A stretch of 42,187 nt of DNA from a virus. Each line of letters begins with the position of its first letter. Position 1 is the first letter of the stretch. The notes beneath the pieces are model-generated. The model saw only the letters and a list, made by a program, of their open reading frames with translations. It searched no databases and was not told the DNA's origin. Of the stretch, positions 4,217 to 41,521 are shown piece after piece. A program made the translations under genes and the position numbers. The DNA is taken from the IMG/VR virus record IMGVR_UViG_3300027733_000089, positions 1 to 42,187 of that record; one strand, written 5' to 3'.

Positions 4217-4848
4217 CAACAATAATTGGCATACAGGGTGATGGCTTTTGTATAGCAACAACTGATTCTCGCATCTCAGAGCTTGAGGGCGGGTCTAATT
4301 TGATTTCGCAATTTGTCAGTCTAAAAGAGACGAATACGAAAATAGCCTTAAATGGTCGCTACTTGTTGGGCGCGGCAGGGGATTTGCGCGCCATAAACAT
4401 ACTGCATCACGCTTTCCAGCCTCCGCCGGCACCGCCAACACTTAAAGGCAAGAAGCTCGACCACTTCGTTACAGTTAAATTTATCCCAGCTTTAAGAGAA
4501 GTATTCGAGTCTTCCGGATACGCAATGCCTGATAAAGATGAAAAGACTCACATGGCGGAGCATGCCTCCACTGTATTCATGGCCATAAACGGCACTATCT
4601 ATATCATTGATGGAGATTACTCCTGGATATCTGACTCCTCTGGCTTGTTTGCCATAGGGAGCGGAGCCCAATACGCACTCGGTTCTCTCTATACACAGAT
4701 GCCAAAAGGCAAACTAACCCTGCCAATGGCAAAGAAAATAGCAATGCGCGCAATCAATGTGGCCGCAAAGTTTGACCCATATACGGGAGCGCCGTACCAC
4801 GCCTTCGTACAGGGAGCCGAAAAACCCCCTGCACCTAAGTCTCAATAG
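4213..4848 (+). CDS. Ntn-hydrolase related to 20S proteasome beta subunit/HslV
   Basis: 211 residues. The N-terminus MTTIIGIQGDGFCIATTDSRIS has the family hallmarks. After Met removal Thr2 becomes Thr1, Asp18 takes the place of catalytic Asp17, and Arg20 that of Arg19. The segment TKIALNGRYLLGAAGDL matches the KVxxI...GxxG region, making Lys43 the likely equivalent of Lys33 after an insertion of about nine residues. Length fits a mature beta subunit without propeptide. Family members are Thr peptidases acting in rings. No alpha-like subunit is visible, so it may form homo-oligomers or join host alpha rings. The TAG stop lies inside the first copy of the phage-wide motif (CAATAGATAAGT). Confidence 0.78.
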   Translation: MTTIIGIQGDGFCIATTDSRISELEGGSNLISQFVSLKETNTKIALNGRYLLGAAGDLRAINILHHAFQPPPAPPTLKGKKLDHFVTVKFIPALREVFESSGYAMPDKDEKTHMAEHASTVFMAINGTIYIIDGDYSWISDSSGLFAIGSGAQYALGSLYTQMPKGKLTLPMAKKIAMRAINVAAKFDPYTGAPYHAFVQGAEKPPAPKSQ

Positions 4849-4878
4849 ATAAGTCATCACAGGATATATAATTAACTC

Positions 4879-5016
4879 ATGCCAACAAAAAGCCAAAAAC
4901 TAGCCGCAACAGCATCCTTCATCATCTCCTTGCCTATCGTTATTGGCTTGATTGTCCTAATTCGCTCCATGCGTGAGCACTTCAGGAAAATACGAGAAGG
5001 ATACCGCTGGGAATAA
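4879..5016 (+). CDS. Small single-span membrane protein
   Basis: 45 residues: MPTKSQKLAATASFIISLP, then a hydrophobic span to about residue 29 (IVIGLIVLI), then a strongly basic tail (RSMREHFRKIREGYRW). It is shorter than common annotation cutoffs. A TATAAT-like sequence (ATATATAATTAA) lies just upstream at 4864-4875, and a regulatory-motif copy at 4845 precedes it, so it may have its own promoter. The charge pattern predicts an outside or periplasmic N-terminus with a cytoplasmic basic tail. Function unknown. Confidence 0.6.
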   Translation: MPTKSQKLAATASFIISLPIVIGLIVLIRSMREHFRKIREGYRWE

Positions 5017-5291
5017 TCCCACGACCTTTGACCCAACTATCTCCATATCTGGGTAGATAGATAAAGAAACGCCTTTTTAACCCATCCACGTGTAAGAAAA
5101 GTCCGTGTAATCACCATAGGTGTCTAACTCTTCTATGTAGGAGTAAACAAACTCTAGGGAGTAGTAGAAACACCTACCCTTTTTCTGCTCTGCGGGCATT
5201 GTCACAGAATCCACTTAACACCCCCCTGTGAGTACGAGTGTACTAATAATTGTGTAGTACTTAAAAATAAGCTTTTACACAAGGACACATA
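5017..5291. other. Intergenic leader of whiB
   Basis: No convincing gene. It holds a near-miss motif copy, TAGATAGATAAAG (5053-5065), and partly self-complementary GGTGTCTAA / AGAAACACC segments (about 5118-5176). AAGGA at 5281-5285 is the ribosome-binding site of whiB. Long leaders are common for whiB-type genes. Confidence 0.4.
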
Positions 5292-5642
5292 GTGGAATCA
5301 GACAACAAAAAGACCCAACAAAAATTACCCAATAAAAATACCTTACCTGTAGAAAGTCTAGCTATACCTAAAAAAGCTTGGTTTGGAATGGCAGCCTGTA
5401 AAGGAAAGACCGAACTAATGTTCCCCAAACAACATAAGGACATTACTTATATCGCTCAGGCGAGAGCATTGTGCAGAACATGCCCAGTGATAGATAACTG
5501 TTTGGAGTACGCACTAGAGTTCCCGCCAGCTGATATGCACGGAGTATGGGCAGGACTCACATCAAGACAACTAGCCGCAGAACAAAGAAGGCGCAAGATA
5601 AAACCAATACGCCCAACACTCGCACAAATGTGGGGTAACTAA
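5292..5642 (+). CDS. whiB: WhiB-family iron-sulfur transcription factor
   Basis: 116 residues from GTG 5292, seven bases after AAGGA. The four cluster-ligating Cys are at about 36 (AACKGK), 61, 64 and 70 (CRTCPVIDNC), with the standard C-x(n)-CxxC-x5-C spacing. The turn motif GVWAGLT (84-90) and a basic C-terminal helix (AAEQRRRKIK) complete the family. WhiB-like proteins bind [4Fe-4S], contact the sigma factor region 4 of the host RNA polymerase, and occur only in Actinobacteria and their phages. Phage copies can alter host division or superinfection (known for mycobacteriophage TM4 WhiB). This gene is the strongest host marker in the window. Confidence 0.93.
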   Translation: MESDNKKTQQKLPNKNTLPVESLAIPKKAWFGMAACKGKTELMFPKQHKDITYIAQARALCRTCPVIDNCLEYALEFPPADMHGVWAGLTSRQLAAEQRRRKIKPIRPTLAQMWGN

Positions 5643-5645
5643 CTT

Positions 5646-5708
5646 ATGGTCACTTTTATCATGCTGGGAATTATTTACGCTTTCATCCTATGGTGGAGTT
5701 CCTACTAG
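5646..5708 (+). CDS. Possible 20-residue membrane peptide
   Basis: ATG 5646 lies three bases after the whiB stop and encodes MVTFIMLGIIYAFILWWSSY, almost entirely hydrophobic with an aromatic end. The close spacing suits co-translation with whiB. A functional micro-protein is possible, but at 20 codons chance cannot be excluded. Confidence 0.35.
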   Translation: MVTFIMLGIIYAFILWWSSY

Positions 5709-5922
5709 AAGAGAAAGGGCTGGGCCGGAAGTCCGTTAGCAATCGCGCCTTTTTGTGTGGTTTGAGCATCCACCGACCCAGCAAGAGAAACTTTATCGCC
5801 GGCCATAAACAAAAGCAACACCCGTATAGCTTTCCACCCGCAAAAGGAATAAACGCAAAAAACCTCCGGAAGCTTGCGAATTTGCTCTTTTTTTCTTTTT
5901 TGAGAAAATTTGTCAGTATTAA

Positions 5923-9126: not shown

Positions 9127-9804
9127 TCACTTGATATCCAATAAAAACCAGCCGCGCTCCCACATCATACCGATGGCTGAGTAACCAATGATATCGACAT
9201 ACGTGTCAGTAAGTGCTTCGTTCTGGGGGTTGTTGCTTGAGAGATGTAAATTCCTCAAGCGCGCTAGCTTGTCATGAGTCCTGATAATTAATCCGATTCT
9301 TCCAAAGCGTGCGATGTTGTTATGCCCGTAATCCATTTGCTTACGAATCAAGGTTTCTGTAATTTGCTCGCGAATCATCCAGGAGTCAAATTCGCCGGCC
9401 GCTGCGGGATTGTCAATTTTTTCAAATTCTGGATGATTATCCAGTGGCCCTGGAGCTCCCAGTAATGGCAATAATTCTCCATTTTTTATCCCCGCCGCTG
9501 CCGCGGTGATGCCAAGGATTTTCCACTCTTCTGTCCAATACATCTGGTCTGAGTCAAAACATTTAGAATTATTCACCATTCCTTCAAACTGAACATCCAG
9601 GCGATGAAGGCCTTCCAGAACAGCTTCCAGGCATGGGTCAATTTCTTGATTTTTTGAACTGTCAACTCGAGCTACGTGCGGTTGGGAGTTCATTTGGTCG
9701 AGGGACTTATCTATTAAGTCGAATATTTGAGAAACACAGATTTTGGCAGCATCTTGCCAACGTTCTGGCTGACCAGGATTCAGTTCATCCACCACCGTCA
9801 ACAT
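9127..9804 (-). CDS. Protein with C-terminal Nmad1/DUF1599-like domain
   Basis: 225 residues. Residues about 145-220 (ETLIRKQMDYGHNNIARFG, RTHDKLARLRNL, DTYVDIIGYSAIG) match the nucleotide-modification-associated domain 1 pattern: KxxDYG, a DKxxR motif and a D-x-D-x-GY helix. This domain is common in phages and is linked to nucleotide metabolism or modified-base systems. The N-terminal 140 residues are unlike that domain. The start lies in copy 3 of the 30-bp repeat (LTVVDE), and a full regulatory motif copy is embedded at 9705-9714, read as LIDKS. Confidence 0.68.
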   Translation of the reverse strand: MLTVVDELNPGQPERWQDAAKICVSQIFDLIDKSLDQMNSQPHVARVDSSKNQEIDPCLEAVLEGLHRLDVQFEGMVNNSKCFDSDQMYWTEEWKILGITAAAAGIKNGELLPLLGAPGPLDNHPEFEKIDNPAAAGEFDSWMIREQITETLIRKQMDYGHNNIARFGRIGLIIRTHDKLARLRNLHLSSNNPQNEALTDTYVDIIGYSAIGMMWERGWFLLDIK

Positions 9805-10976: not shown

Positions 10977-10982
10977 GTGTTC

Positions 10983-11357
10983 ATGGATAACCTCACAAAA
11001 TTCAATATTTATACAGGAGCTCTCGAGCAGTACATTTCCCGAGAAGGGGATTCTCGAATTCCGGCAATTCATATCGAAAAATTTCAAGAAAATGATATTT
11101 CCCTAGGGGCATGGTCCGGATATATTCGTCAGAGATATCGTAAAAATCAACTCCATCCAGAACGTGTTTCAAAAATGCAAGAAATTGCTGGCTGGCAGTG
11201 GGGTCCATTTCAGCCGGGTCCTGCGACGGACATCAAAAGAAATGAAATTATTAAAGAAATGCGTATCGAGGGAAAGTCCCTTCGGGAAATCGCCGATGAG
11301 TTTGATTTGTCTCGGCAGCGGGTTCATCAAATAGTTAAGAAACTTAAAATCGATTAA
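10983..11357 (+). CDS. Helicase-associated-domain protein with C-terminal HTH
   Basis: 124 residues from ATG 10983. Residues about 5-75 match the helicase-associated (HA) domain: LEQYISREG, RIPAIH, SLGAWSGYIRQRY, LHPERVSKMQEIAGWQW. Residues about 85-122 form a sigma-region-4/HTH fold: IIKEMRIEGKSLREIADEF then LSRQRVHQIVKKLK. HA domains are small helical DNA-binding modules found beside helicases and in phage regulators. A LexA box overlaps its promoter, so DNA damage should induce it. The transcript may be leaderless. I infer a DNA-binding regulator, possibly tied to induction. Confidence 0.8.
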   Translation: MDNLTKFNIYTGALEQYISREGDSRIPAIHIEKFQENDISLGAWSGYIRQRYRKNQLHPERVSKMQEIAGWQWGPFQPGPATDIKRNEIIKEMRIEGKSLREIADEFDLSRQRVHQIVKKLKID

Positions 11358-11366
11358 TAATAAAAG

Positions 11367-11396
11367 TCATCCACCACCGTCATTCACTAACGTGAG
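11367..11396 (+). repeat. 30-bp dispersed repeat, copy 4
   Basis: TCATCCACCACCGTCA, TTCA, CTAACGTGAG. This is the fullest copy and the only one lying in front of a plus-strand gene; its GTGAGGGAGAG end doubles as the ribosome-binding region for the gene at 11406. Confidence 0.75.
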
Positions 11397-11405
11397 GGAG
11401 AGAAC

Positions 11406-11690
11406 ATGAATCTCAGAAAAAACGAAAAATTAAACGGGGGCGCAGCGTACCCGAGAGTAATCCGAGACGATTTTCGCGGGGCTCCTATCAAGCCGAAGGA
11501 GTCAGAATCAAGCGGGGCTCTCTTGGGATTTTTGGTGGCGAGCGCAATCAACACTTTGGTCATTGACGGTGCGCTACACATCTTGCGCTCTGCTGGCGTG
11601 ACAGAGGTGAGCCTGTCACTGTGGCAGACGCTCGGCTTGTCATCACTTCTCATGGTGTGGCGTGGCGTAGAGAGAGCCATGCGCCAGTAG
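11406..11690 (+). CDS. Small membrane protein
   Basis: 94 residues. The N-terminal 35 residues are polar and basic. Hydrophobic segments occur at about 38-55 (ALLGFLVASAINTLVIDGAL) and 70-85 (LWQTLGLSSLLMVW), followed by a basic end. GAGGGAGA precedes the ATG. It follows the LexA-controlled HTH gene and may be co-transcribed with it. Two short spans and a small size would fit a membrane toxin or holin-like role, but nothing specific supports that. Confidence 0.65.
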   Translation: MNLRKNEKLNGGAAYPRVIRDDFRGAPIKPKESESSGALLGFLVASAINTLVIDGALHILRSAGVTEVSLSLWQTLGLSSLLMVWRGVERAMRQ

Positions 11691-11835
11691 CGATAGCGAG
11701 CGATTGACTTATCTATCACTGTACGGCTCTGTGTGAGCGTCACGGTAACGAGTTGAGTGAGAATGAGTAGTAGTGACAGAGCGAGCGTGTACGGCTCTGT
11801 GAGTAGCGCAAGAATGAATAGCAGAATCTCCATGA
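11691..11835. other. Convergent intergenic region
   Basis: It holds a motif copy (11707-11716, minus) and a direct repeat TGTACGGCTCTGTG (at about 11719 and 11789). No gene is supported. Confidence 0.4.
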
Positions 11836-12039
11836 CTACTGTCTATCAGCAAGTTCAGCAAGAACGGACATAATGTTATTGCCTTCATTCCACATCAGAT
11901 TATCGTAGTCCTCGTACGCTTTCTGTGGCGTGTATGTGCCTGCGATTATCTCGTCTTGTATTGCAGAGTAGTATCTAATTGCGCTCGTAAGACTCGCCTG
12001 CAAGTCTGTTAGTAATTCTGATTCAGATGGCTCGGTCAT
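11836..12039 (-). CDS. Small acidic helical protein
   Basis: 67 residues, acidic, predicted helical throughout (SESELLTDLQASLTSAIRYYSAIQDEI, then YEDYDNLMWNEGNNIMSVLAELADRQ). AAAAGGATTTTTT precedes the ATG. It lies downstream of the VWA gene, separated by two hairpins and by two motif copies in the opposite orientation. Function unknown. Confidence 0.65.
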   Translation of the reverse strand: MTEPSESELLTDLQASLTSAIRYYSAIQDEIIAGTYTPQKAYEDYDNLMWNEGNNIMSVLAELADRQ

Positions 12040-12112
12040 AAAAAATCCTTTTTTTGATTAGTAATAGATAAGTGTCAGATGTGGTACATGAATAGATAAG
12101 TGAAACGCCAAT

Positions 12113-12166
12113 GTCTCTCGGCAATGTGTAGTACCCACCAAAGGAGAAACACGATTACCGAGAGAC
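12113..12166. other. Inverted repeat between transcription units
   Basis: GTCTCTCGG (12113-12121) pairs with CCGAGAGAC (12158-12166) around a 36-base loop containing AAAGGAGAAAC. Two motif copies pointing + (12064, 12092) lie beside it. It may be a terminator or leader structure. Confidence 0.45.
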
Positions 12167-12178
12167 ACTAGCACCAGT

Positions 12179-12214
12179 GCCTCTGTTGGGAACAACCAAG
12201 AAACCAACAGAGGC
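12179..12214 (-). terminator. Terminator hairpin after the VWA gene
   Basis: An 11-bp perfect stem, GCCTCTGTTGG / CCAACAGAGGC, lies 14 bases past the VWA stop codon. It has no long U-tract. A motif copy lies between stop codon and hairpin. Confidence 0.6.
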
Positions 12215-12227
12215 AGGGACTTATCTA

Positions 12228-13775
12228 TTACTGAATGTTCACGCCCATGTGCTGACGATAAGTGTGAACGAACATTGACGGATACACGCTCTTTGGCTTT
12301 ATGCCTTTGTTCATGTTGGACAGTTGCTCAATCGCTTCCTCAATGTGTGGCACAACAATGTAGTTGTGTTTCATTGCGTAAGTTAGGCACTGCATAGCGA
12401 GCAGGTCTGTGTAACCATCACCTTCGCCACACACTCCACCGTCTGTAATCCAAACGAGAGGAGTGTTGCGATACTGGCGATTCTCTACGCCCCACACGAT
12501 TGCAGGATAATCAACACCGTTTCCGTGTCCGTAAGGAATGTTCTCCAATGTCTCAATCATTCGTCCCTTATCAGCGATAATCCACATGTTCGCACCGTTC
12601 TTTTTGTGACGGTCTGAATAGATTGCCACCGTTGCGCCTTTTGCCAAATCTGTAATCTGCCAAATCTGCTCTTTGGTGAATGACATAGAACCACTTGCGT
12701 CAATGATGACCATGCCACCACTGCCACGAACGGTCTTGTCAAATACTCGCTTTGCAGGGTCAGTCATGTAACGGTGCATACGGCGTGGTCTGCGCCCCAT
12801 GTTCGTAGCAACACGCTTCTTGCCGATTGTGCCAGCGTGTAAGCGTGGCATAGGAACACGCTCAATGCGTAGTTCTGCCCACTTGCCAGTGCCACTGTGT
12901 GATGTTGGGGTAATGCTCTGATGAGGAATACCTTTCTTGTCACCTTCCTCTGAATCGCCTTCGTTGGAATGGACTGCCGTAGCAGGGTCTTTCTCGCCTT
13001 CTTCGCCTTCGCCTGACTTATCTATTCCCTTTGCACCTGCACCAGCCTTGCCTTCTTTCTCACGCTCTTTTGGTGGTGGGAATGAAGCGAGCCTGTCCAC
13101 CCATTCTGCGATTCTTTCTGTGTGAACGAATCCGTATGGCGCAATGCCGTGATGTTCTGTTGTGTTGGCGAGAGAGCGTGTCTTGTGCGCTTTCTTCATC
13201 TCACGGACTGCTCGCTTGCTGATGTCAAGCAGAGCGTCACCCCATGCACGATTGTGCCTGCGAATACCGTTCAGGAATTGCTTGTGTCCAGCAGTGCCAG
13301 CAGTTGCGATTGCACCTGTTACTGCACCAGCCCAATCTCCAGTTTTCGCTAGGCGTTCTCCGTCATTGAGTTCTCCACCGTCAGCGAGATTCTTCTTCAC
13401 ATCAAATCCTGCCTCTTGGCAAAGAATGTTTATGCGTAATTCCTCTACAACGGTCAGTGCAGTAGCAGAAGCCATTTCACGAGCAACCCACATCTCAAAT
13501 TGTTCAGAGTTTGGTGAAACTTTTGAGTGCATGAGTTCATGCCCACGAATACAGCGAGCGAGTTCGTCCGTCTGTGACGGTGTGAACATTGTGCGAGTAT
13601 TCAGGTCAGTGCTTGGCTCGCCTCTGACTGCTTGACATTCTTCTACTGTCCATCGTCCATGCGCTAAGTCTTTGCGCCCGATGAAGTTTGGCTCGGCTTT
13701 CGCCGTTCCCCCTGACTTATCTATTGACGAGGGGAACGGCTTACCAACGCTCTTTCGTGCTGGCTTGATACTCAT
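12228..13775 (-). CDS. VWA-domain protein with metallopeptidase-like N-terminus (DUF2201/CobT-like)
   Basis: 515 residues. An HExxH motif (HELMH, 79-83) followed by EELRIN (about 111-116) resembles the putative metallopeptidase domain that precedes VWA-like domains in DUF2201 proteins. An acidic, low-complexity linker (about 235-295) resembles that of CobT-type proteins. The C-terminal VWA domain has the MIDAS sequence DASGSMS (359-365) and a later TDGG. Partners are MoxR-type ATPases, and one lies immediately upstream with a 2-base gap. Such pairs remodel or metallate protein targets; the target here is unknown. Two regulatory motif copies are translated in frame as IDKSG (13016, 13715). Confidence 0.85.
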   Translation of the reverse strand: MSIKPARKSVGKPFPSSIDKSGGTAKAEPNFIGRKDLAHGRWTVEECQAVRGEPSTDLNTRTMFTPSQTDELARCIRGHELMHSKVSPNSEQFEMWVAREMASATALTVVEELRINILCQEAGFDVKKNLADGGELNDGERLAKTGDWAGAVTGAIATAGTAGHKQFLNGIRRHNRAWGDALLDISKRAVREMKKAHKTRSLANTTEHHGIAPYGFVHTERIAEWVDRLASFPPPKEREKEGKAGAGAKGIDKSGEGEEGEKDPATAVHSNEGDSEEGDKKGIPHQSITPTSHSGTGKWAELRIERVPMPRLHAGTIGKKRVATNMGRRPRRMHRYMTDPAKRVFDKTVRGSGGMVIIDASGSMSFTKEQIWQITDLAKGATVAIYSDRHKKNGANMWIIADKGRMIETLENIPYGHGNGVDYPAIVWGVENRQYRNTPLVWITDGGVCGEGDGYTDLLAMQCLTYAMKHNYIVVPHIEEAIEQLSNMNKGIKPKSVYPSMFVHTYRQHMGVNIQ

Positions 13776-13777
13776 GG

Positions 13778-14503
13778 TTAGACCACCGAATCAACTGCGA
13801 TAGCGTCAAGAATCTGCTTTGCTCGCTTGCCGAATGTGAGTTGGCATGCTCGTTCCATGCCTACGCTCTTACGCAACTTGTCAAGAGCCATAAATGCTCG
13901 CAACGAGATACGGTCATCGCCAGCGTCAGCCATACGGATTGCGTATCCACGCAAATCCTTTGACAATGCGAGCAGAGCGTGTGGGTGTGGTTCGTTGATA
14001 CGAATACGGATTGGGAAACGGTCAGCGAGTGCTGTTGGCAATTCGCCCATGTTCTCAATGTTCGTGGTCATAATTGCAGAGAAGCCTTCTTTGGGTCGGA
14101 CTACCGAGCCAGTTTCAGGATGCTCAAATGAAGCAGATTCAGGTGAATCAAGCATGGCGAGAAGTGTTGCGAACACATCGCCACCAGCCTTGTCAATTTC
14201 GTCCACGATAAGTCGTGCGCCAACTGTGCCGTTGCCGTTCCATGCTTTGAGGGCAGAACCGTCAAGCCATTGGAAGCCACCGTTATTACTTGGCATGAAG
14301 CCACCAGTTACATCCATGTTTGTCATGTCCTCTGTGCAAACAAGACGGTATGCGCCTGCTTCCACATTGCCCATTGTCATACCTGCGTAGGTCTTGCCGA
14401 TTCCAGCAGGTCCAAACAGGATTACTCGGTCAATGCCTGCATTGAGAGCGTCATTGAGGTCAGTCCAGCACTGAGGCAGGCTTTCCGTTGTTGTTGATTC
14501 CAT
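13778..14503 (-). CDS. MoxR/CobS-type AAA+ ATPase
   Basis: 241 residues. Walker A is FGPAGIGKTYAG (about 31-42), Walker B is RLIVDEIDKAG (about 98-108), and sensor-1 is MTTNIENMG. LADRFPIRIRI supplies the arginine-finger region. The length equals a single AAA+ module. The adjoining VWA/HExxH protein and the common promoter (14539-14565) make the two a co-expressed ATPase-effector pair. In cobalt and magnesium chelatases and in MoxR-VWA systems, the ATPase ring drives the VWA partner. AAGGAGAATAGAG precedes the start. Confidence 0.9.
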   Translation of the reverse strand: MESTTTESLPQCWTDLNDALNAGIDRVILFGPAGIGKTYAGMTMGNVEAGAYRLVCTEDMTNMDVTGGFMPSNNGGFQWLDGSALKAWNGNGTVGARLIVDEIDKAGGDVFATLLAMLDSPESASFEHPETGSVVRPKEGFSAIMTTNIENMGELPTALADRFPIRIRINEPHPHALLALSKDLRGYAIRMADAGDDRISLRAFMALDKLRKSVGMERACQLTFGKRAKQILDAIAVDSVV

Positions 14504-14538
14504 CTCTATTCTCCTTGTTGTTGGTGAGTGGTGAACAC

Positions 14539-14565
14539 ACCATACCAGCGTAGGTACAGACCTAC
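14539..14565 (-). promoter_or_regulatory. Family promoter for the MoxR-VWA operon
   Basis: On the minus strand: GTAGGTCTGTACCTAC (perfect GTAGGT/ACCTAC inverted repeat), then TATGGT as -10 (14539-14544). Three motif copies lie upstream (14573, 14592, 14621). Confidence 0.8.
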
Positions 14566-14723
14566 AAACCTGACTTATCTATTCAGTAGAGACTTATCTA
14601 TTCAGTATCAGAAGCGCACCACTTATCTATTCACTCTCCACTTGTGGGCAAGCGAGCGAGCGAGTGCGCCAGCGCAAACTTTTTTATCTCTACCCCCATG
14701 CTCGCCACACGCCCTTCTGCGTT

Positions 14724-14758
14724 GGAGCCCCGATGTTGCCGAGCAGTGCCGGGGCTCC
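14724..14758 (-). terminator. AGCCCCG-family hairpin 1
   Basis: GGAGCCCCG / CGGGGCTCC, a 9-bp perfect stem with a 17-base loop. It lies past the stop at 14793 and before the MoxR promoter, with the G-rich GATAAAAAAGT element on the promoter side. Confidence 0.75.
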
Positions 14759-14792
14759 TATGGGAAAGGGGACTTATCTATTACAGATAGTT

Positions 14793-15275
14793 TTATTTTT
14801 CTCGTTTGGGAACCATAAGAACTTCCCATAGTCCATTTTTGATTTTGCGAAATAATGGAGATTCTTTGAGGTAGGTCAAAGTTGTCTGGTAAGAGAATCC
14901 TGATTGTTCTGTGAGTTGGTCAGATGTAAATTGCTCTGCCTGATGTTCGCTTGACCACTGCTCAAATGCTGACCACTTATCTTTGCGCTTCTCTGTGCGT
15001 TCTACTTCTACCTGTGCGTCAGATAGTCCGATGAATGTTGATAGAAGGTACTTTGATACTTCTGCCTGCACCGAGTATGTACTTAGGTACGATTGTGGTA
15101 CACGCTGTCCACCTTCTCGTTGCCAAATCTGCAATACATAAAGTCCTCTGTTTATTTCAGAAACATAAGAAACTTCCGAGAACGGAACTGCTGTTGCGTT
15201 TTTGTATTTTTTGAGAAGCACTGCCCAATGTTCTTTGTGTACTTCTTTGATTAGGTCATCTGTAATAGTTTGCAT
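14793..15275 (-). CDS. Protein of unknown function, HTH-like C-terminus
   Basis: 160 residues, basic. The C-terminal half (HQAEQFTSDQLTEQSGFSYQ, then TTLTYLKESPLFRKIKNGLWEVLM) has the shape of a winged helix: helix, turn, recognition helix, and a strand pair ending in GLWEV. The N-terminus is helical. AGGAAAAAATG marks the start. A + oriented motif copy lies about 60 bases upstream. A regulator is plausible. Confidence 0.7.
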   Translation of the reverse strand: MQTITDDLIKEVHKEHWAVLLKKYKNATAVPFSEVSYVSEINRGLYVLQIWQREGGQRVPQSYLSTYSVQAEVSKYLLSTFIGLSDAQVEVERTEKRKDKWSAFEQWSSEHQAEQFTSDQLTEQSGFSYQTTLTYLKESPLFRKIKNGLWEVLMVPKREK

Positions 15276-15355
15276 TTTTTCCTTTTTTTTGCAGTTTCTA
15301 CCGTTTAGTTTTTTTCTAAAAAATCGTTTTTTTGATAGATAAGTAAGTTGGGCTG

Positions 15356-15565
15356 TTAGTCAATAACAACCCAACTGTCCTCTCCCTTGATTAGTCCGAG
15401 ACTAGACCCACTATCCCACTGCACAAACATTGTTCCTAGTGAATCAAAGTCGGTAATGACCCCTTCATCTCCTTTGGATAGTTTGGTGTGAATGTCAGAT
15501 GTGTAAATCAGCCTGATTCTCCTGCCAATAAGTGCTTCTAGTCCTGCTGACAACTTATCTATCAT
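15356..15565 (-). CDS. DUF4314-like small protein
   Basis: 69 residues. IGRRIRLIYTSD, KGDEGVITDFDSLGTMFVQWDSGSSLGLIKGEDSW matches DUF4314 (GxRVRL...GxxGxV..iDd.G.i.v.WD.G..L...pGxD), a small SH3-like fold common in phages. The first codons are ATG-ATA-GAT-AAG, so a regulatory motif copy forms the N-terminus (MIDKL). The start overlaps the stop of the next upstream frame (ATGA). Confidence 0.75.
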   Translation of the reverse strand: MIDKLSAGLEALIGRRIRLIYTSDIHTKLSKGDEGVITDFDSLGTMFVQWDSGSSLGLIKGEDSWVVID

Positions 15566-15720
15566 GCTGGCTCTTTCTCTTGTAACGCGATGATTCGCAT
15601 GTCTAATAGAAAATCTGTCATTTCTAATGACGAAACAATGTCTCTGCCTGAACAGTGGGAGATTGCTTTGTCAATCAACAAGACGATTGGTGACTTATCT
15701 ATTACAGATTCTTCACTCAT
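15562..15720 (-). CDS. Small protein, function unknown
   Basis: 52 residues: MSEESVIDKSPIVLLIDKAI then HCSGRDIVSSLEMTDFLLDM and a charged end. Both ends overlap neighbouring genes by 4 nt (ATGA), strong evidence of a real coupled gene despite its length. The motif copy at 15693 is translated as VIDKS within the first ten codons. No family is recognised. Confidence 0.7.
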   Translation of the reverse strand: MSEESVIDKSPIVLLIDKAISHCSGRDIVSSLEMTDFLLDMRIIALQEKEPA

Positions 15721-15956: not shown

Positions 15957-15960
15957 TTAT

Positions 15961-16629: not shown

Positions 16630-16660
16630 TGGCTTTCTCCTTGTTGGTAGGTGTGCAGTC

Positions 16661-29305: not shown

Positions 29306-29349
29306 CCGCGCACGCCCACAACCACCACAACAACCCACAAGGAGCCCAC

Positions 29350-29451: not shown

Positions 29452-29478
29452 TTCGGACAAAGGAAGGAACCACACCCG

Positions 29479-30087
29479 ATGAACACACACCCACACCACG
29501 CAGCAGTAGTAGACGCAATCAAGGCGCTACCTGCTTACACAGACCCGCAGACATTCTTTGAGTCAGAACTAGCCGAGTGCTACTCAGACGAGGAGCTTGT
29601 AGAAACATTCGGCTGGGACGGAGACAAGGCGCTCACAATCAAGCAGGCGCTCAAAGCAGTCAAGGAGCTTTGCGAGCTTCGTCAAGATGTTTACGGCTGG
29701 ATTATTGAGGAAGGCGACCGAGAGCGCGAAGCAGAGCAAGAGGCGTACAAGCGCTGGCGCGAAGAACAAGAGGCAGCTAGCCGTTGTGGTTGGCTCGTAG
29801 AGCGCTCATGGGAAGCAGCTTTCCCATTCGTGCCGAACCCCGAATACACAGATGAGGAGAACGCCGAACACAGGCAGTGGCACGGTGAAAGCCTCGGTGA
29901 ACGAGCAGCAGAGTCAGGCAACCGCTACGCAATCGTTGATTGTGGTGCGAAGCTCGCAGATGTCATTCGCAACGGCGTGCGAGTTGGTTGGGAGTGCGAA
30001 GCAGGTCACCGTTCCATCAGCATGGAACACATGACGCAAGAGGAGCAGGACGAGCAATACCGCTTGGATTACGAGGACAGCTACTAG
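29479..30087 (+). CDS. Protein of unknown function, acidic helical
   Basis: 202 residues. The N-terminus is helical (VVDAIKALPAYTDPQTFFES). A charged coiled-coil-like segment lies at about 75-100 (GDREREAEQEAYKRWREEQE). The C-terminal part has CGAKLADVIRNGVRVGWECE and CEAGHRS. AAGGAAGGAACC precedes the ATG. A motif copy follows the stop. Second gene under the 29279 promoter. No family is recognised. Confidence 0.75.
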   Translation: MNTHPHHAAVVDAIKALPAYTDPQTFFESELAECYSDEELVETFGWDGDKALTIKQALKAVKELCELRQDVYGWIIEEGDREREAEQEAYKRWREEQEAASRCGWLVERSWEAAFPFVPNPEYTDEENAEHRQWHGESLGERAAESGNRYAIVDCGAKLADVIRNGVRVGWECEAGHRSISMEHMTQEEQDEQYRLDYEDSY

Positions 30088-30166
30088 CCACCTCTTGGAA
30101 TAGATAAGTTCTCCCCACGCCCCCACCCCCCCTTCCATCAGGGGCGTGGGGTTTATCGCAGGGACA

Positions 30167-30742: not shown

Positions 30743-30800
30743 CTCATCGGCTCGGGTGTTCGGCGCGAACAACACGCGATGGGGGTTGTGATAGATAAGT

Positions 30801-30867: not shown

Positions 30868-31149
30868 ATGAAGCAAGTAACAATCACATGGAAAGCGTTC
30901 GGCGAACCAACATCGGCTGCACTCGCGCTTGACACGAGCGCAAGCGCGTTGGAGATATGCGATGCAATATTCCACCAAACGAATGTTTACGCTGGTCCGA
31001 TATGGGACGAACTGGAACCGCTCCTGCCAGCCACACGCACACACACTGCGCTTTCAGTTGGAGACGAAGTCACAGTTGATGGCGAAGTGATTCGGTGCGA
31101 GCCAATGGGTTGGGCTACCAGGTTCATCGCTGACGCTCTTACTGAATAG
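30868..31149 (+). CDS. Small protein, function unknown
   Basis: 93 residues from ATG 30868, behind GAAGGGAAAGTC. Strands (QVTITWKAFGEPTSAALALD), a helix (SALEICDAIFHQTNVYAG), and a beta-rich end (ALSVGDEVTVDGEVIRCE). The stop codon is in a motif copy. Single-gene unit with promoter and terminator. Not assigned. Confidence 0.72.
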   Translation: MKQVTITWKAFGEPTSAALALDTSASALEICDAIFHQTNVYAGPIWDELEPLLPATRTHTALSVGDEVTVDGEVIRCEPMGWATRFIADALTE

Positions 31150-31166
31150 ATAAGTCCCCCCAGCGG

Positions 31167-31661: not shown

Positions 31662-31682
31662 TGGTGATAGATAAGTCCCCTT

Positions 31683-31735: not shown

Positions 31736-32038
31736 ATGATAACAACGGAAAAATTCGAGATGCTCAAAGAGCAACTGGAAGCATCAACAGACCAGATGAA
31801 GAAAATGGTAGAGGCGCTAAGAACGCCAACACCATGCGATTGCTGCTTCTCAGACGAGGAGAACGCTGAGAATTATCGCGATTTTGAGAACGCAGTTCGC
31901 GACCTCTCTAACGAATGTCAAGAGATTGCGATGAAGGCCTACGATTGCTACATGGCCATCACCCGCGCTCCACTGGAAATTGCGCTCGCACAACTGGATG
32001 CGATGCAAGAGGGCTACCGCCTCCTCGCCGAACAATAG
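31736..32038 (+). CDS. Helical small protein, function unknown
   Basis: 100 residues from ATG 31736, behind GGAAGGGG. Helical throughout (EMLKEQLEASTDQMKKMVEA, NYRDFENAVRDLSNECQEIA, LEIALAQLDAMQEGYRLLAE), with a CDCC group near residue 40 that could bind metal. Stop TAG followed by a motif copy and terminator. Not assigned. Confidence 0.72.
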   Translation: MITTEKFEMLKEQLEASTDQMKKMVEALRTPTPCDCCFSDEENAENYRDFENAVRDLSNECQEIAMKAYDCYMAITRAPLEIALAQLDAMQEGYRLLAEQ

Positions 32039-32051
32039 GTAATAGATAAGT

Positions 32052-32076: not shown

Positions 32077-32135
32077 ATTTTCTTTGCCCGTGACCCAGCC
32101 CGTACTTGTAATAGATAAGTCCCCTGTTGTGATGA

Positions 32136-32279: not shown

Positions 32280-32786
32280 ATGCCAAAGACGGCTCTACAA
32301 GTAAAGACCACAGGTGAAGTAGTAATGCTTGACCTAGAGGGTGACGAACTAGCAACACTGCAGAGTGCAGTGGGCGGATACATTGAAGCAATAAACTTCA
32401 CCAACTCGCTGACTATGTGGTGCAACGAAGAAGGCAAACTAGACGGTCTCTCGCAGAACATCATTGCTCAACACTTCTATGACAATGCATACGGTGCAGG
32501 GCGTGACATTATCGTGGGTGATGTTGTATTCACTGGCGGTGCTGATGATGAAGGTGACACAATGGGTCTCCGTGAAGAATTGGTCAAAGACATTCACGAA
32601 GTAGCCGAGCGTCTTGCTCGCTCCGCAGTGTTCATCACCAAGGCAGAGACGAAGAAGGTCATGAGCTGGCAAGACCATCTCGGTGACGCTCCTATGACAG
32701 AGGAGAATGTGTGGCAGGCAATTGCTGATGCGAATGACCTTGACTACGACGAAATTGCTGACGGCGATTTATTTGAGTGGCTCTAG
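32280..32786 (+). CDS. DUF3846-like protein, second copy
   Basis: 168 residues from ATG 32280, behind GGAAGGGG. LQSAVGGYIEAINFTNSLTM, WCNEEGKLDGLSQNIIAQHF and GRDIIVGDVVFTGG match DUF3846, as in the gene at 20042. A further C-terminal part (VFITKAETKKVMSWQDHLGD, NDLDYDEIADGDLFEWL) is absent from the first copy. The two share a family but are strongly diverged. The function is unknown. Confidence 0.78.
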   Translation: MPKTALQVKTTGEVVMLDLEGDELATLQSAVGGYIEAINFTNSLTMWCNEEGKLDGLSQNIIAQHFYDNAYGAGRDIIVGDVVFTGGADDEGDTMGLREELVKDIHEVAERLARSAVFITKAETKKVMSWQDHLGDAPMTEENVWQAIADANDLDYDEIADGDLFEWL

Positions 32787-32819
32787 CGCTCAATTATTGG
32801 TAATAGATAAGTGCCAATT

Positions 32820-32873: not shown

Positions 32874-33215
32874 ATGTCATCAGACATTACATTCATCAAC
32901 AGAGTGCAGGAAGCACTCACGGCAGGCAAGGTTATCGGGGACGGGCACACTCTGTTCGCTCCCGAGTTCTACGAGCCGTACTTCACGGCAGAGGAACTCT
33001 CTAGCCTTATTCGTAAGCACGAATCTCACGGCTCGTGGAAATCCACCATCTTTGACGAGGACGGCAATGTCATTCCTGAATTAGAGGCTATCTACAATCT
33101 AGATTTTCTCTACTGGCTCGCAGGGCAACTCGGAGTGACGGAGCGCACCACAGCGAACGGCAGAGGCTCGCAGGCTCAGCAACTCGTAGGGTACATCAGA
33201 GAAATACTGGTCTAA
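32874..33215 (+). CDS. Protein of unknown function
   Basis: 113 residues from ATG 32874, behind GGAAAGGGGTACGC. TFINRVQEALTAGKVIGDGH, APEFYEPYFTAEELSSLIRK, YWLAGQLGVTERTTANGRGS: mixed helix and strand, soluble. The ending SQAQQLVGYIREIL is helical. Single-gene unit closed by a motif and terminator. Not assigned. Confidence 0.72.
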   Translation: MSSDITFINRVQEALTAGKVIGDGHTLFAPEFYEPYFTAEELSSLIRKHESHGSWKSTIFDEDGNVIPELEAIYNLDFLYWLAGQLGVTERTTANGRGSQAQQLVGYIREILV

Positions 33216-33251
33216 CCAACAGAGCCACAACGGCTCCCTACTGAATAGATA

Positions 33252-33283
33252 AGTCCCCCGAGTGTCATTGCTCGGGGGACTTG
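33252..33283 (+). terminator. Terminator after the 32874 gene
   Basis: AGTCCCCCGAG / CTCGGGGGACT, an 11-bp perfect stem with an 8-base loop, whose left arm starts inside a motif copy (33245). Confidence 0.8.
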
Positions 33284-33342
33284 TCGTGTCCATGCACATT
33301 CGAGTCTTGTATCTGTAATAGATAAGTACCCCGCGCCAAGGA

Positions 33343-33429: not shown

Positions 33430-33633
33430 ATGGGAGAACCAAAGAAGAAAGCCACATCGCGTAAATCGCCGGCTAAGAAAAAAGCCGAGCCAGTAGTGCG
33501 TACGGTGACAGTGGGTAACGTGACCAGCACGCAGCCTCTTACGTACGTCACGAGCTTCCCGAAGGTAATTACAAAGTCGACAGATACCCGTATTAAGTCA
33601 GTCAACGTAACAATCGTATTTGGAGAAGGCTGA
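33430..33633 (+). CDS. Small basic protein, Lys-rich head
   Basis: 67 residues from ATG 33430, behind AGGAGGACATC. Basic N-terminus (EPKKKATSRKSPAKKKAEP), then strands (VVRTVTVGNVTSTQPLTYVT, STDTRIKSVNVTIVFGEG). The basic head resembles DNA- or RNA-binding tails, and the rest may be a small beta domain. It overlaps or abuts the next gene. Not assigned. Confidence 0.7.
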   Translation: MGEPKKKATSRKSPAKKKAEPVVRTVTVGNVTSTQPLTYVTSFPKVITKSTDTRIKSVNVTIVFGEG

Positions 33634-33931: not shown

Positions 33932-34116
33932 TTGATGAATTCGTAGCTTTCTTAAGGAACAGCGCAATATTCCACTTGCTAATGAGTCTGCTTGCTGGGT
34001 TCATGGGGCTGATGAACACATCAGACTTCATAGCAACGCTACTGATTATATCTGCTGCAGCAAATTCACTTTACGCACTCCATTTGGGTGACGTGAATGG
34101 GGTTCTAGATAGATAA
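33832..34116 (+). CDS. Membrane protein overlapping the previous gene
   Basis: 94 residues from ATG 33832, behind GAGGGAGACCC. The first 30 residues (basic) overlap the preceding gene by 100 nt in another frame. Hydrophobic spans lie at about 45-62 (SAIFHLLMSLLAGFMGLM) and 65-85 (SDFIATLLIISAAANSLYAL). The stop TAA lies in a motif copy, as with real genes here. A later start is possible. Function unknown. Confidence 0.55.
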   Translation: MHSRDSYVRERRAQAINRGRTLAEPVAQSLLEVVDEFVAFLRNSAIFHLLMSLLAGFMGLMNTSDFIATLLIISAAANSLYALHLGDVNGVLDR

Positions 34117-34124
34117 GTCGCTGA

Positions 34125-35627: not shown

Positions 35628-37547
35628 ATGCGACTTTATTTAGACAACGACGAGATAGTTCTTGACTTTCCGTTCGATAAAGAGCAAGTGAATGAACTCA
35701 AAGCAATCTCCGGTGCTCGCTGGGACAAGCTTACGAAATTGTGGCGACTACCTATCACCTCTGTAACCGAAGGAAGAGACTTCGCACTCAAGCACGGGTT
35801 TGATGTAACCGTTGATGTAATGAAGTTCACTGTTCCTCAAGACAAGAAGCCATCTGCTGCTCGTGTATGGATAAACGCCGGCAGTATCAGTATTCGTTAC
35901 CCGTACGAGCGCGTGGCCATTAAAGCAATCAAGCAAATACCCGCAGTGTCTTGGGATGGGGAACAACGAGCGTGGACTGCACCCATGTCATCAGTCAAGA
36001 ACGTAATTGCGTGGGCTGGAATGTTTAACGTTACGGTTGATAACGAAATCATGGTCGAAGCAACCCATGTAGAAGAAAAGACTAATCAACTCATCGAAGC
36101 ATCTCGCTCTACTGATGCAGTCATAGCAATAGATAAGTTGCAGGGTGATTTGCTTCCGTATCAAAGAGCCGGTGTGCAGTATGCAGCCAACGCTCGTAGA
36201 ACATTCATCGCAGACGAGATGGGTCTTGGAAAGACAATTCAGGCAATATGCACTGTTGAGTACGTAATGGATTCGTATCCGGTAGTAGTTGTATGCCCAC
36301 CGAGCCTTGTACTTAACTGGGCTAAGGAGTGGAATAAGTGGTTACCCGAGAGACGAGTAACTACCGTAACGAATAGGAAAGTGTTTCCAGATGAAGAAAC
36401 ATATGACGTTGTCATCGTTGGTTACAGCAACATCCCTCACTGGGAGAAGAGGCTCACCGGACATCGCTCGTACATTTTCGACGAGAGTCACTATTGTAAG
36501 ACGCCTACTGCACAACGAACCAAGGCAGCAGTCAAGATAGCCCGTAGTGCTCCGAAGGAAGGTCTTGTTCTCTGTCTTACCGGAACACCCGTGACCAACC
36601 GGCCAAACGAATACGCTTCACAACTCGAGATACTCGGAAGACTCAAAGAGTTCGGTGGGTTGTGGGGTTTCTACCGGCGTTATTGTGCTGCGTATCAAGA
36701 CTCGTTTGGTCAATGGAACATCAGTGGGAACTCTCACTTAGATGAACTCAACGACAGACTACGTGGAGCGTGTTACATACGCCGAACAAAAGACCAAGTT
36801 CTTTCCGAGTTGCCACCCGTAGTCCATAGCCGGCTTGTCGTCGAAGGAAGCTCGGCCGGAATGAAGGAGTATGTCAAGGCAGAAAAGGACATCTTGTTCT
36901 ACATCGCTGAACGCGCACGGCAACTTGCTATAGAACGAGGCGAGCCGTCTCACAAAGCAGCGATGGCTGCAATGATTAGAGCCGAAGCCAATGAACACCT
37001 CGTTCGGTTGTCCATACTTAGAAGACTTGCTGCCAAAGCGAAGATGGATTCCGTACACGAATGGGTTGATGCGCACCTAGAGGACGGCAAGAAGGTAGTG
37101 ATTGCTGCTCACCACAGAGAGATAGTCGACGAGTTGTCTAATAAGTACGGCAATCTACGTATCCAAGGAGGGATGTCCGTAGAGGAAGTCGAACTAAACA
37201 AGAAGAAGTTCCAAGAGTTAGGCGTCGACAAGGCACCCGTAATCGTTTTGTCGATGCAGGCAGCAAAGACCGGACACACGTTGACTGCTTCGGAGAACTG
37301 TCTGTTCGTGGAACTCCCGTGGACACCCGCGGACGTAGACCAAACTTACAGCAGATTGCACAGACTGGGACAAAAGGGCAGCGTGACGGCGACTTATCTA
37401 TTAGCAGCCGGAACAATCGATGAAGATATTTACGATTTAATAGATAAAAAGCGTTCCGTAGTCGATGCAGCCGTAGAAGGTGGCGAAGTATCTAGCGTAA
37501 ATGGCACCGTACAGATGATTATGGGCCTATTTGATAGGGCTCGCTAG
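35628..37547 (+). CDS. SNF2-family helicase with HARP-like N-terminus
   Basis: 639 residues from ATG 35628, behind GTGAGGGCTCACAG; GTG 35613 would add five. The N-terminus has two similar HARP-like units, ISGARWDKLTKLWRLPITSV (about 25-45) and IPAVSWDGEQRAWTAPMSSV (about 103-122), as in SMARCAL1-type annealing helicases. Then come Walker A DEMGLGKTIQ (about 195), DESHY (about 285), LTGTPVTNRP, and motif VI QTYSRLHRLGQKG (about 571). ATP-driven remodelling or annealing of branched DNA is the family role, fitting replication or recombination. A motif copy is translated at 36129 (AIDKL). Confidence 0.92.
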   Translation: MRLYLDNDEIVLDFPFDKEQVNELKAISGARWDKLTKLWRLPITSVTEGRDFALKHGFDVTVDVMKFTVPQDKKPSAARVWINAGSISIRYPYERVAIKAIKQIPAVSWDGEQRAWTAPMSSVKNVIAWAGMFNVTVDNEIMVEATHVEEKTNQLIEASRSTDAVIAIDKLQGDLLPYQRAGVQYAANARRTFIADEMGLGKTIQAICTVEYVMDSYPVVVVCPPSLVLNWAKEWNKWLPERRVTTVTNRKVFPDEETYDVVIVGYSNIPHWEKRLTGHRSYIFDESHYCKTPTAQRTKAAVKIARSAPKEGLVLCLTGTPVTNRPNEYASQLEILGRLKEFGGLWGFYRRYCAAYQDSFGQWNISGNSHLDELNDRLRGACYIRRTKDQVLSELPPVVHSRLVVEGSSAGMKEYVKAEKDILFYIAERARQLAIERGEPSHKAAMAAMIRAEANEHLVRLSILRRLAAKAKMDSVHEWVDAHLEDGKKVVIAAHHREIVDELSNKYGNLRIQGGMSVEEVELNKKKFQELGVDKAPVIVLSMQAAKTGHTLTASENCLFVELPWTPADVDQTYSRLHRLGQKGSVTATYLLAAGTIDEDIYDLIDKKRSVVDAAVEGGEVSSVNGTVQMIMGLFDRAR

Positions 37548-40296: not shown

Positions 40297-40315
40297 GATG
40301 TGGGTACTTATCTAT

Positions 40316-40567
40316 CTAGTGTCTATGCACGGGGGTTGATGAATCTTTGCGCCACTTCATCATGTTGTAGGCATGTGTTATCCACCACATGAGGGACATG
40401 GCTATGAAGCCGGGCTTATCATGACTGATGCTGTACACAAACCATGGCACGCTATGTAGTAGGACAATCAACCATCCCCACCAATGCAGGCGTCCAACGG
40501 CGAACATGCCACATACACCTACTATCTCCATTGCGAAGAGGAACCAAGTCCATCCTGTATCACCCAT
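40316..40567 (-). CDS. Polytopic small membrane protein
   Basis: 83 residues with three hydrophobic segments (about 5-25, 27-47, 52-68) rich in Trp: TWFLFAMEIVGVCGMFAVG, WWGWLIVLLHSVPWFVYSI, GFIAMSLMWWITHAY. Basic tail (MMKWRKDSSTPVHRH). It overlaps the upstream gene by 8 nt. A motif copy (40306) follows the stop. Function unknown. Confidence 0.7.
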   Translation of the reverse strand: MGDTGWTWFLFAMEIVGVCGMFAVGRLHWWGWLIVLLHSVPWFVYSISHDKPGFIAMSLMWWITHAYNMMKWRKDSSTPVHRH

Positions 40568-40760
40568 GGCTACCCGTGGCTGTTGCGTCGATGTTTGAGC
40601 GAGAGGGTCTAAGGGCTTCGACCACCTGAATGAGCAACGTCATTAGGTGTTGGTCGGCATAAGGGTGAGGGGGATTAGTACCTAACGTCCTCTTGTGTTC
40701 ATTGATGAAGGTGTCAAGAGCGTCGTGTTGACTACCTGATGAGGCATGTGTGGTATTCAT
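40560..40760 (-). CDS. Small protein, function unknown
   Basis: 66 residues. Polar N-terminus, then ALDTFINEHKRTLGTNPPHP, YADQHLMTLLIQVVEALRPS, a pattern met in other small phage proteins. Its promoter (40769) is nine bases upstream, leaving a very short leader. First gene of a pair with the membrane protein. Not assigned. Confidence 0.68.
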   Translation of the reverse strand: MNTTHASSGSQHDALDTFINEHKRTLGTNPPHPYADQHLMTLLIQVVEALRPSRSNIDATATGSHG

Positions 40761-40768
40761 TGACTGTG

Positions 40769-40795
40769 ATACTACACCAATAGGTACAGACCTAC
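40769..40795 (-). promoter_or_regulatory. Family promoter for the 40760 unit
   Basis: Minus strand: GTAGGTCTGTACCT, seven bases, TAGTAT. It is the most distal member of the family and lacks an adjacent motif copy. Confidence 0.75.
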
Positions 40796-40818
40796 ACGGG
40801 GGTCGTCAAGAAAGGCGA

Positions 40819-41199
40819 TTACTTGATGAAGCCATTAGACGTCATCCTTATCAGTGATGAGTAAGCGAACTGCCTTCGCTCGGTCACTTCTCTCAACGCC
40901 CTCTCTCTGTATGCCTTATCCATTAGGGCGAAGGACGTTTCAGAGATGTGTATGTCGAGCTCTCTCTCTGCGTCAAGCATGAGCGAGTTGAGGCTGAACT
41001 GTCCATCGGCTGTCATAGGGGTGACGTTGTGTTCAGCACAGGCATCAAAGACCTTAGTCATAAAGAGAGAGGCGAGATGCCAACGAGTCAACTCCTCGTG
41101 CTTAGAGGGGTGCTTCTTCTGTTTACCACGTCCTACTAAGTAGGAAGCGATGGTCTTAGAGAGAGACGATGTGTCAACGTAGAAGGCGATAGGTGTCAT
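40819..41199 (-). CDS. Protein of unknown function
   Basis: 126 residues. FYVDTSSLSKTIASYLVGRG, then a basic KQKKHPSKHEE segment, then helices (LASLFMTKVFDACAEHNVTP, LNSLMLDAERELDIHISETS, KAYRERALREVTERRQFAYS). An Asp near the N-terminus after a strand (FYVD) recalls PIN domains, but the other acidic residues are not arranged convincingly. Not assigned. Confidence 0.7.
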   Translation of the reverse strand: MTPIAFYVDTSSLSKTIASYLVGRGKQKKHPSKHEELTRWHLASLFMTKVFDACAEHNVTPMTADGQFSLNSLMLDAERELDIHISETSFALMDKAYRERALREVTERRQFAYSSLIRMTSNGFIK

Positions 41200-41521
41200 G
41201 AGATAGGCACTCTATCACTACTAGGGGTATCGGTCCCTGTTATCGCATCGGGTCATCGTGTATGTGGATGAGGTGATGTGTGTGCAAAAGCGTACCTATT
41301 AGGCACGCTTCTACACGATGTGAGGGTATGGAGGTGAAGGATGAGGGAGGGGAGGGTGAGATGGGGTTGAGGTACGGGGGTACATAGAGGGGGACTTATC
41401 TATCTCAACACCCGTAGCCACCCGTAGCCTTGCGAAACGTGTTGGGTCAAGGTGACGAGGGCGAGGGGGTAAGCGATGAAGGGGTGTGATGGTTACCTCA
41501 TTAGACAAGGGGTACGTACCC
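41200..41521. other. Intergenic region with hairpin and motif
   Basis: It contains AAGCGT-ACC-TATTA-GGC-ACGCTT (41287-41309), a hairpin or operator, and a motif copy continued by CTCAACACCCG (41394). Purine-rich stretch at 41330-41380. No supported gene. Confidence 0.45.

Follow-up and report, generated by a model that had tools for sequence, protein, structure and literature searches.

A stoperator-like array of short asymmetric sites, with a lineage-private word, in one region of a large phage genome

The virus record IMGVR_UViG_3300027733_000089 (here the window, the whole 42,187-nt stretch analysed) carries 65 exact copies of the 10-mer ATAGATAAGT. This array is real, strongly selected and composed of lineage-private regulatory sites. 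The copies are numerous, share a sharp core, are confined to one region and show an orientation bias and two location classes; in related phages the positions are conserved, the word changes in concert, and at one intragenic site the codons track it. With somewhat better than even confidence, we regard the 65 copies as asymmetric DNA operators for one trans-acting, probably phage-encoded protein of lineage-private specificity, which would combine promoter gating with a stoperator-like stop of elongation. On this reading the DNA-binding protein would silence or gate many small transcription units.

A sharp core confined to one region

The 65 copies (26 on the + strand and 39 on the - strand) span 4845 to 41403, compared with a mean of 0.02 and a maximum of 1 in 100 dinucleotide shuffles of the window. 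An earlier note on this DNA had reported more than 60 core copies where well under one was expected, as is indeed the case, and had suggested counting one-mismatch variants. Only 10 were found in the window, and the core is therefore sharp; five of the 10 are ATAGAAAAGT and belong to another repeated element. The motif had been described as a 12-mer. The 12-mer TAATAGATAAGT does recur, with 27 exact copies, but since these are so few the 10-mer is the better core. Flanking preferences are weak: approximately T at -6, G/T at -3, T/G at -2, A at -1 and C 3' of the core. The backwards-read control pattern TGAATAGATA has 14 copies in the window, accounted for by a longer form, TGAATAGATAAGT (14 copies of TGAATAGATAA).

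The window is contained, with 9 mismatches, in a near-identical record of 158.7 kb (G002). G002 carries 66 copies, 65 of them in one stretch of about 37 kb (within the best 42-kb stretch), about a quarter of the genome. The motif thus marks a single region rich in small genes and is not 'phage-wide', as had been claimed. A near-identity search with window positions 12000-30000 against a phage collection gave no match. Viral contigs scanned for GTAATAGATAAGTC yielded at least 120 stretches, with a single copy in nearly all of the 80 listed. In the open-licence literature, subscription journals being outside the search, we recognised nothing describing this motif array.

Orientation and location of the copies

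Copies mostly run with transcription, as the earlier note had it: 54 of the 65 have the orientation of the nearest gene (binomial p about 6e-8). Gene models came from a home-made gene finder and hand-added open reading frames (ORFs). Among the 63 genes called in the zone of G002, a sense copy lies at -25 to +60 of the stop in 27 (5.4% for random positions) and an antisense copy at the gene end in 5, while 16 have a sense copy 20-140 nt upstream of the start. Counted by copy (n=65), 27 are at gene ends and 20 before starts, 6 of these being both. Overlap with a predicted stop codon is seen for 12 copies (distances of -7, -3 and 0).

Terminators had also been proposed as a location. Hairpins of the form GAGCCCCG...CGGGGCTC do lie downstream of several gene-end copies, but the DNA 3' of promoter-side copies folds equally stably (70-nt medians of -19.4 after promoter-side copies and -21.0 after gene-end copies, versus -14.2 for random zone DNA). 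GAGCCCCG itself occurs at 27 places in the window, e.g. 14725-14757, often as paired hairpin arms past gene ends; these hairpins are candidate terminators without a U tract.

On the promoter side, the sequence GTAGTTCTGTACCT or GTAGGTCTGTACCT recurs, with TAnnnT (often TGGTAnnnT) about 7 nt further on, and the combination resembles a host-type promoter. A motif copy lies at most 60 bp upstream of 13/20 such promoter-like sites before genes in G002, with gaps of 5-14 nt (11-12 nt in 10/13), and the density of the pattern within the zone is three times that outside it (7.1 versus 2.3 per 10 kb), counts which are partly circular as the pattern was derived from the same sequences. Promoter-side copies are located upstream of the inferred -35 and hence outside the RNA of that promoter, which favours a site acting at the DNA level.

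Copies of ATAGATAAGT in the window (coordinates, strand, location):
4845-4854, +, overlaps stop of 4213-4848
9705-9714, -
11707-11716, -, within ORF 11387-11833
12064-12073, +, antisense to flanking genes
12092-12101, +, antisense to flanking genes
12219-12228, -, shares last stop-codon base of 12228-13775
13016-13025, -, within gene 12228-13775, read Ile-Asp-Lys; amino acids track motif in several relatives
13715-13724, -, within gene 12228-13775; 54 nt past end of 13778-14503
14573-14582, -, upstream of promoter of 13778-14503
14592-14601, -
14621-14630, -
14772-14781, -, 12 nt past stop of 14793-15275
15335-15344, +, antisense; 60 nt ahead of 14793-15275 start
15553-15562, -, at stop of 15562-15720
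15693-15702, -
15955-15964, -, at stop of 15961-16629
16916-16925, -, 6 nt past stop of 16931-17587
17657-17666, -, upstream of promoter
17837-17846, -, at stop of 17846-18271
18148-18157, -, within ORF 17846-18271
18612-18621, -, at stop of 18618-18845
19123-19132, -, upstream of promoter
19659-19668, -, ahead of GAGCCCCG hairpin
19713-19722, +, antisense
20027-20036, -, 6 nt past stop of 20042-20485
20549-20558, -, upstream of promoter
21085-21094, -, upstream of promoter
21411-21420, -
21457-21466, +, antisense
22035-22044, -, upstream of promoter
22192-22201, -
22241-22250, +, antisense
22266-22275, +, antisense
22860-22869, -, upstream of promoter
23074-23083, -
23507-23516, -, 8 nt past stop of 23524-23955
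24328-24337, -, upstream of promoter
24597-24606, +, antisense
24640-24649, +, antisense
24962-24971, -, 11 nt past stop of 24982-25320
25537-25546, -, upstream of promoter-like element
25609-25618, -
25806-25815, -, at stop of 25812-26246
26312-26321, -, upstream of promoter
26534-26543, +, upstream of promoter
27139-27148, +, at stop of 26669-27139
27316-27325, +, upstream of promoter
28027-28036, +, in last codons of 27811-28050
28433-28442, -, 3 nt past stop of 28445-28756
28951-28960, -, at stop of ORF 28953-29351
29193-29202, +
30100-30109, +, 13 nt past stop of 29479-30087
30791-30800, +, fused to GGGGGT element; abuts promoter
31146-31155, +, at stop of 30868-31149
31667-31676, +, upstream of promoter
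32042-32051, +, 4 nt past stop of 31736-32038
32111-32120, +
32803-32812, +, upstream of promoter
33245-33254, +, 30 nt past stop of 32874-33215
33318-33327, +
34109-34118, +, at stop of ORF 34012-34116
36129-36138, +, within helicase gene
37392-37401, -, antisense within helicase gene
40306-40315, -, 1 nt past stop of 40316-40567
41394-41403, -

Related phages keep positions and change the word

Relatives were gathered via a DUF932 protein and via an AAA ATPase (for the latter, the best 80 of 132 confirmed, with 6 more from metagenome-assembled genomes); loci and records overlap partly and are not independent samples. The median protein identity to G002 is 55-62% for six long records (G003, G005, G013, G016, G017 and G019) and about 80% among G003, G005 and G017. 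Each of the six has at most 3 copies of ATAGATAAGT and 33-94 copies of its own word variant, in one stretch:

G003, GTAGATAAGT 69 copies and GTAGATAACT 25 copies, 94/94 in the best 42-kb stretch
G005, GTAGGTAA(G/C)T 33 copies, 33/33 in the best 42-kb stretch
G017, GTAGGTAA(G/C)T 70 copies, 70/70 in the best 42-kb stretch
G016, GTAGATAA(G/C)T 74 copies, 73/74 in the best 42-kb stretch
G013, ATAGATAACT 63 copies, 62/63 in the best 42-kb stretch
G019, CTAGATAAGT 43 copies, 43/43 in the best 42-kb stretch

Among records with ATAGATAAGT, GTAGATAA(G/C)T, GTAGGTAAGT, ATAGATAACT or CTAGATAAGT, the exact word of another is usually absent (0-8 copies), except that lineages having the same core share words. 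In records further removed, the words are unrelated: AAATTTGGTA (30 copies, G020), GTAAATCTGA (27, G028), CTGGAGTTTC (34, G029), CAGACAGAAT (30, G030) and GATTTGTCGG (18, G021). Some of these distant words look palindromic (CCAAATTTGG), so the binding mode may differ there. On our reading, a private word could be assigned at 55 of the 86 loci scanned. Six contigs of the family (L267-L272) come from genome bins assigned to Actinomycetota, Gammaproteobacteria, Planctomycetaceae, Poseidoniaceae and Verrucomicrobia; stray phage sequence probably accounts for most of them.

Orthologous gene ends tend to keep a site. Where the window phage has an end site, its orthologs have one in 12/17 cases in G003, 10/13 in G013, 9/16 in G016, 11/15 in G017 and 6/7 in G019; for orthologs of genes without one, the corresponding counts are 6/19, 4/14, 3/19, 4/19 and 2/15. 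The earlier note had named the absence of conserved positions or motif in related phages as its refutation: the positions are conserved and the motif itself is replaced in concert. A copy also precedes many promoter-like sites of the relatives (G003 17/22, G013 6/9, G016 8/18, G017 13/19; in G019, 0 of 0, the pattern matching no site). The gap is 7-8 nt in 10/17 cases in G003 and 7 nt in 4/6 in G013, and gaps are scattered in G016.

Two of the three sense frames of the core contain stop codons (direct reading), and a sense intragenic copy can therefore be read only as Ile-Asp-Lys. The copy at 13016-13025, within gene 12228-13775, is read in this way and is the clearest case of a position kept under a changing word: the window has GGA-ATA-GAT-AAG (G-I-D-K), G003 has GGA-GTA-GAT-AAG, G017 has GGT-GTA-GGT-AAG and G019 has TCA-CTA-GAT-AAG; ATA-GAT(-AAC) is found in L208, L209 and G013-like records. 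The residues here follow the motif of the genome (GIDKS, GVDKS, GVGKS and SLDKS). Many of the 56 distinct rows, including G016 and the distant groups, have no copy there (42 nt compared), in an alignment that crosses a variable linker.

Candidate reader proteins

Dozens of sites have been replaced in concert between close relatives, which implies a trans-acting factor that has changed too and is therefore probably phage-encoded. The array thus implies a lineage-specific, probably phage-encoded reader. We infer that a protein reads the motif as DNA, that this reader is encoded by the phage (candidate 14793-15275) and that its effect is mainly silencing. Of the corresponding proposal in the earlier note, the phage-encoded binding protein remains the most likely, while the readers it named are disfavoured: the DNA-reading segments of the XRE protein 16690, the ribbon-helix-helix (RHH) proteins 5923 and 6257 and the winged helix 1902 do not follow the motif.

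The XRE-type helix-turn-helix (HTH) protein (16690-16896, -) is disfavoured by (D/E)RKT(V/I)NR(I/V)E, kept in nearly all rows despite very different words, and a sigma-region-4-like HTH protein (10977-11357, +) likewise by SRQR(V/I)HQI. Winged helix 1902 retains (I/L)SETM(I/V)(D/E)KT across phages with differing motifs, and RHH 6257 is nearly constant across such phages. The DNA-contacting strand of RHH 5923 does vary, but out of step with the motif: G005 and G027, as well as G021 and G031, have a common strand and different motifs. Also rejected were a family of small acidic paralogues, of which the ATAGATAACT and CTAGATAAGT groups lack the second member, and the proteins 21539, 22328 and 24982, in which no HTH was seen. 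Nothing was found among the ORFs upstream of the helicase gene. G005 and G017 share a word; genes in which these two resemble each other more than they resemble G003 included no convincing regulator, G005 being without about 13 kb of the zone.

The candidate retained is:
14793-15275, -, 160-aa protein with a predicted helical N-terminal part and C-terminal winged helix

It is present in 100 of the 109 locus and record sets. Its AlphaFold model is of good confidence, with a mean predicted local distance difference test score (pLDDT) of 88.1 and a predicted template-modelling score (pTM) of 0.54; an AP2-like N-terminal domain, our first guess, was not borne out, the model being helical there. 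The middle of the predicted recognition helix is variable (TTL, then T, E, G, N, K or R), and this variation falls, with overlaps, between groups differing in the first base of the word. Winged-helix structures match the model weakly, with Z of 6-8 (best 7.9), the DNA-binding domain of Rok among them with Z 6.5, all in the commonly seen range. Foldseek with the model returned nothing from PDB or viral structures at E <= 0.001, and a profile search of PDB sequences gave no match.

Proposed operators and the alternatives to them

If the copies are operators, those directly upstream of the inferred -35 would gate initiation, and those at gene ends, mostly in the direction of transcription, would halt elongation or insulate the many small gene units from one another, as stoperators do. 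Several observations weigh against this reading. Eleven of the 65 copies run opposite to the nearest gene, and 24 fall in neither location class as defined. The partial circularity of the promoter counts is another such point, and the near-fixed promoter gap suits an activator equally well as a repressor. No clear private motif appeared at 31 of the 86 relative loci within the stretch scanned, and the 132-kb record G023 showed no private word clearly. As for lysogeny genes, PF00589 was found in 0/4 records and PF00239 in 0/9, and ParA-like (AAA_31) matches in 3/9 with none in G002, records that may be incomplete. Regulator-like proteins that were examined, RHH 5923 excepted, have near-constant recognition segments. 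A column test of 25 families failed to single out 14793-15275, which gave 0 separating columns at word position 1 and 9 at position 9, where other families reach up to 37 and several that cannot be readers exceed it. No reader is proven, and the candidate 14793-15275 is therefore a lead, not a finding.

With a modest chance of being right, a phage-encoded activator bound just upstream of the -35 could switch on many small genes jointly, the gene-end copies being remnants of duplicated modules or sites of the next promoter. The near-fixed gap within a genome (11-12 nt in 10/13 for G002, 7-8 nt in 10/17 for G003, 7 nt in 4/6 for G013) and the fact that no repressor or integrase was recognised in the records searched speak for it. 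However, 27 of the 65 copies are at gene ends, some on stop codons, and are kept at orthologous ends; intragenic copies distant from promoters are retained, and the gaps in G016 are scattered. The 54 copies oriented with transcription, and the presence of gene-end copies in 3' untranslated RNA, several ahead of hairpins, would also suit AUAGAUAAGU in mRNA as a processing, termination or antitermination signal for a phage protein or small RNA. We consider this improbable, given that promoter-side copies are outside the RNA of their promoter, that 11 copies are antisense and that stronger folding is not particular to gene-end copies.

That the motif is the binding site of a host regulator, the lineages differing since their hosts differ, appears more improbable still. 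The host is probably actinobacterial and a change of host is possible, but the word is fully different at about 80% protein identity (G003 versus G005 and G017) and the words of distant relatives are unrelated; host regulators seldom change specificity that much. Least probable of all, and very much so, are boundary repeats for recombination enabling exchange of small gene cassettes: direct repeats do flank many small genes, and the gene content of the region varies among relatives, whereas exchange would favour a common word over a private one, and copies at conserved places within coding sequences do not fit.

More speculatively, a family of large actinobacterial phages may run a private code, with a fast-changing reader of a new kind (candidate 14793-15275), for self-recognition and not for classical integrated lysogeny; we rate this as well short of even, with an appreciable chance nonetheless. 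If true, the code would time the phage's own early genes and shut off close competitors in the same cell, and such shut-off would drive the words apart. About twenty private words among the relatives of one phage family, at conserved positions, provide a natural series of motif-and-reader pairs. With this series it becomes possible to test how a DNA-binding protein and its dozens of sites evolve jointly, which has long been asked in work on regulatory evolution and superinfection immunity. Silencing without lysogeny genes, if true, would extend the range of uses known for stoperator-like sites.

Comparison with known systems

As described in two reports (PMC9283540, PMC6550527), Cluster A mycobacteriophages have 20-30 asymmetric sites that run with transcription and whose consensus differs among related phages; a monomeric two-domain repressor binds them. 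The window array resembles the stoperators of L5, Bxb1, Peaches and TipsytheTRex in its many short asymmetric sites at promoters and short intergenic spaces, in their orientation mostly with transcription and in a consensus varying among relatives. It differs in its unrelated sequence, in the number of copies (65 exact in 37 kb, versus the 20-30 sites per genome in those sources), in its confinement to one region where Cluster A sites occur throughout the genome, and in words that have moved much further apart among relatives. Applied to the control genome Peaches, the same k-mer scan recovered the site of that phage, CGATGTCAAG, with 14 copies versus 0.06 expected. A stoperator layout with a sequence unrelated to the Cluster A site, as first proposed, is thus what we find.

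A search of 9 records with the Peaches gp68 repressor gave a single weak match (10.6 bits), in a reading frame interrupted by stops, and a very distant homologue could escape it. In layout the array works like Cluster A stoperators; it is not assigned as a member, because there is no credible repressor match, no integrase family was found in the records searched, G002 has no ParA-like match and the array is confined to one region. ParA-like ATPases are encoded at 117302 in G003, 33060 in G017 and 42674 in G016; extrachromosomal maintenance is possible in these three relatives.

Two other systems share some of these features. SPBRE, a repeated element of the large phage SPbeta, was found in silico long before its repressor MrpR (PMC10516654), and the window motif, too, recurs within the genome of a large phage. 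SPBRE differs in comprising about ten 15-bp promoter sites, with none described at gene ends, and MrpR has a tyrosine-recombinase fold, whereas PF00589 was found in 0/4 records here, remote folds being possible. The start-associated sequences (SAS/ESAS) of Cluster K mycobacteriophages (PMC3203893) are, like the window motif, dispersed, asymmetric and mostly in a single orientation, with positions conserved at orthologous genes. They immediately precede start codons, with a possible role in initiating translation, while the window motif is located at gene ends and 5' of the -35.

Neighbouring repeated elements and genes

A second repeated element, (T/A)TGACGGTGGTGGATGA, lies at window positions 7770, 9092, 9785, 11367, 17670 and 19490 (- strand) and is invariant among relatives. 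ACGGTGGTGGA was found in 18/18 records searched, with 2-9 copies each, lying on one strand in all records but one; from its sequence, the TTGACG of this second element could be a -35. Another element, GGGGGTCGTGATAAAAAAGT or GGGGGTAGAGATAGAAAAGT, is located between hairpin and promoter at 14678, 17732, 19519, 19568, 21260, 22163, 22939, 24368, 26494, 27266, 29009, 31278 and 32214, and at 30790 and 32214 it replaces the motif beside the promoter. Its counterpart in G013 is ACGGGGGGCTTCCGATAA, with 18 copies.

The motif zone is bordered by a gene for a proteasome/HslV-like peptidase (4213-4848). A WhiB-like protein is encoded at 5292-5642 (+), which points to an actinobacterial host, so that the host of the window phage is probably actinobacterial. 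Two similar proteins of the same PHROG, 20042-20485 and 32280-32786, are transcribed in opposite directions, the second matching DUF3846. The window also encodes a small basic protein (33430-33633, isoelectric point 10.4), and lysine-/alanine-rich histone-like proteins lie upstream of the SNF2 helicase in G003 (120036-120398), G016, G017 and G019.

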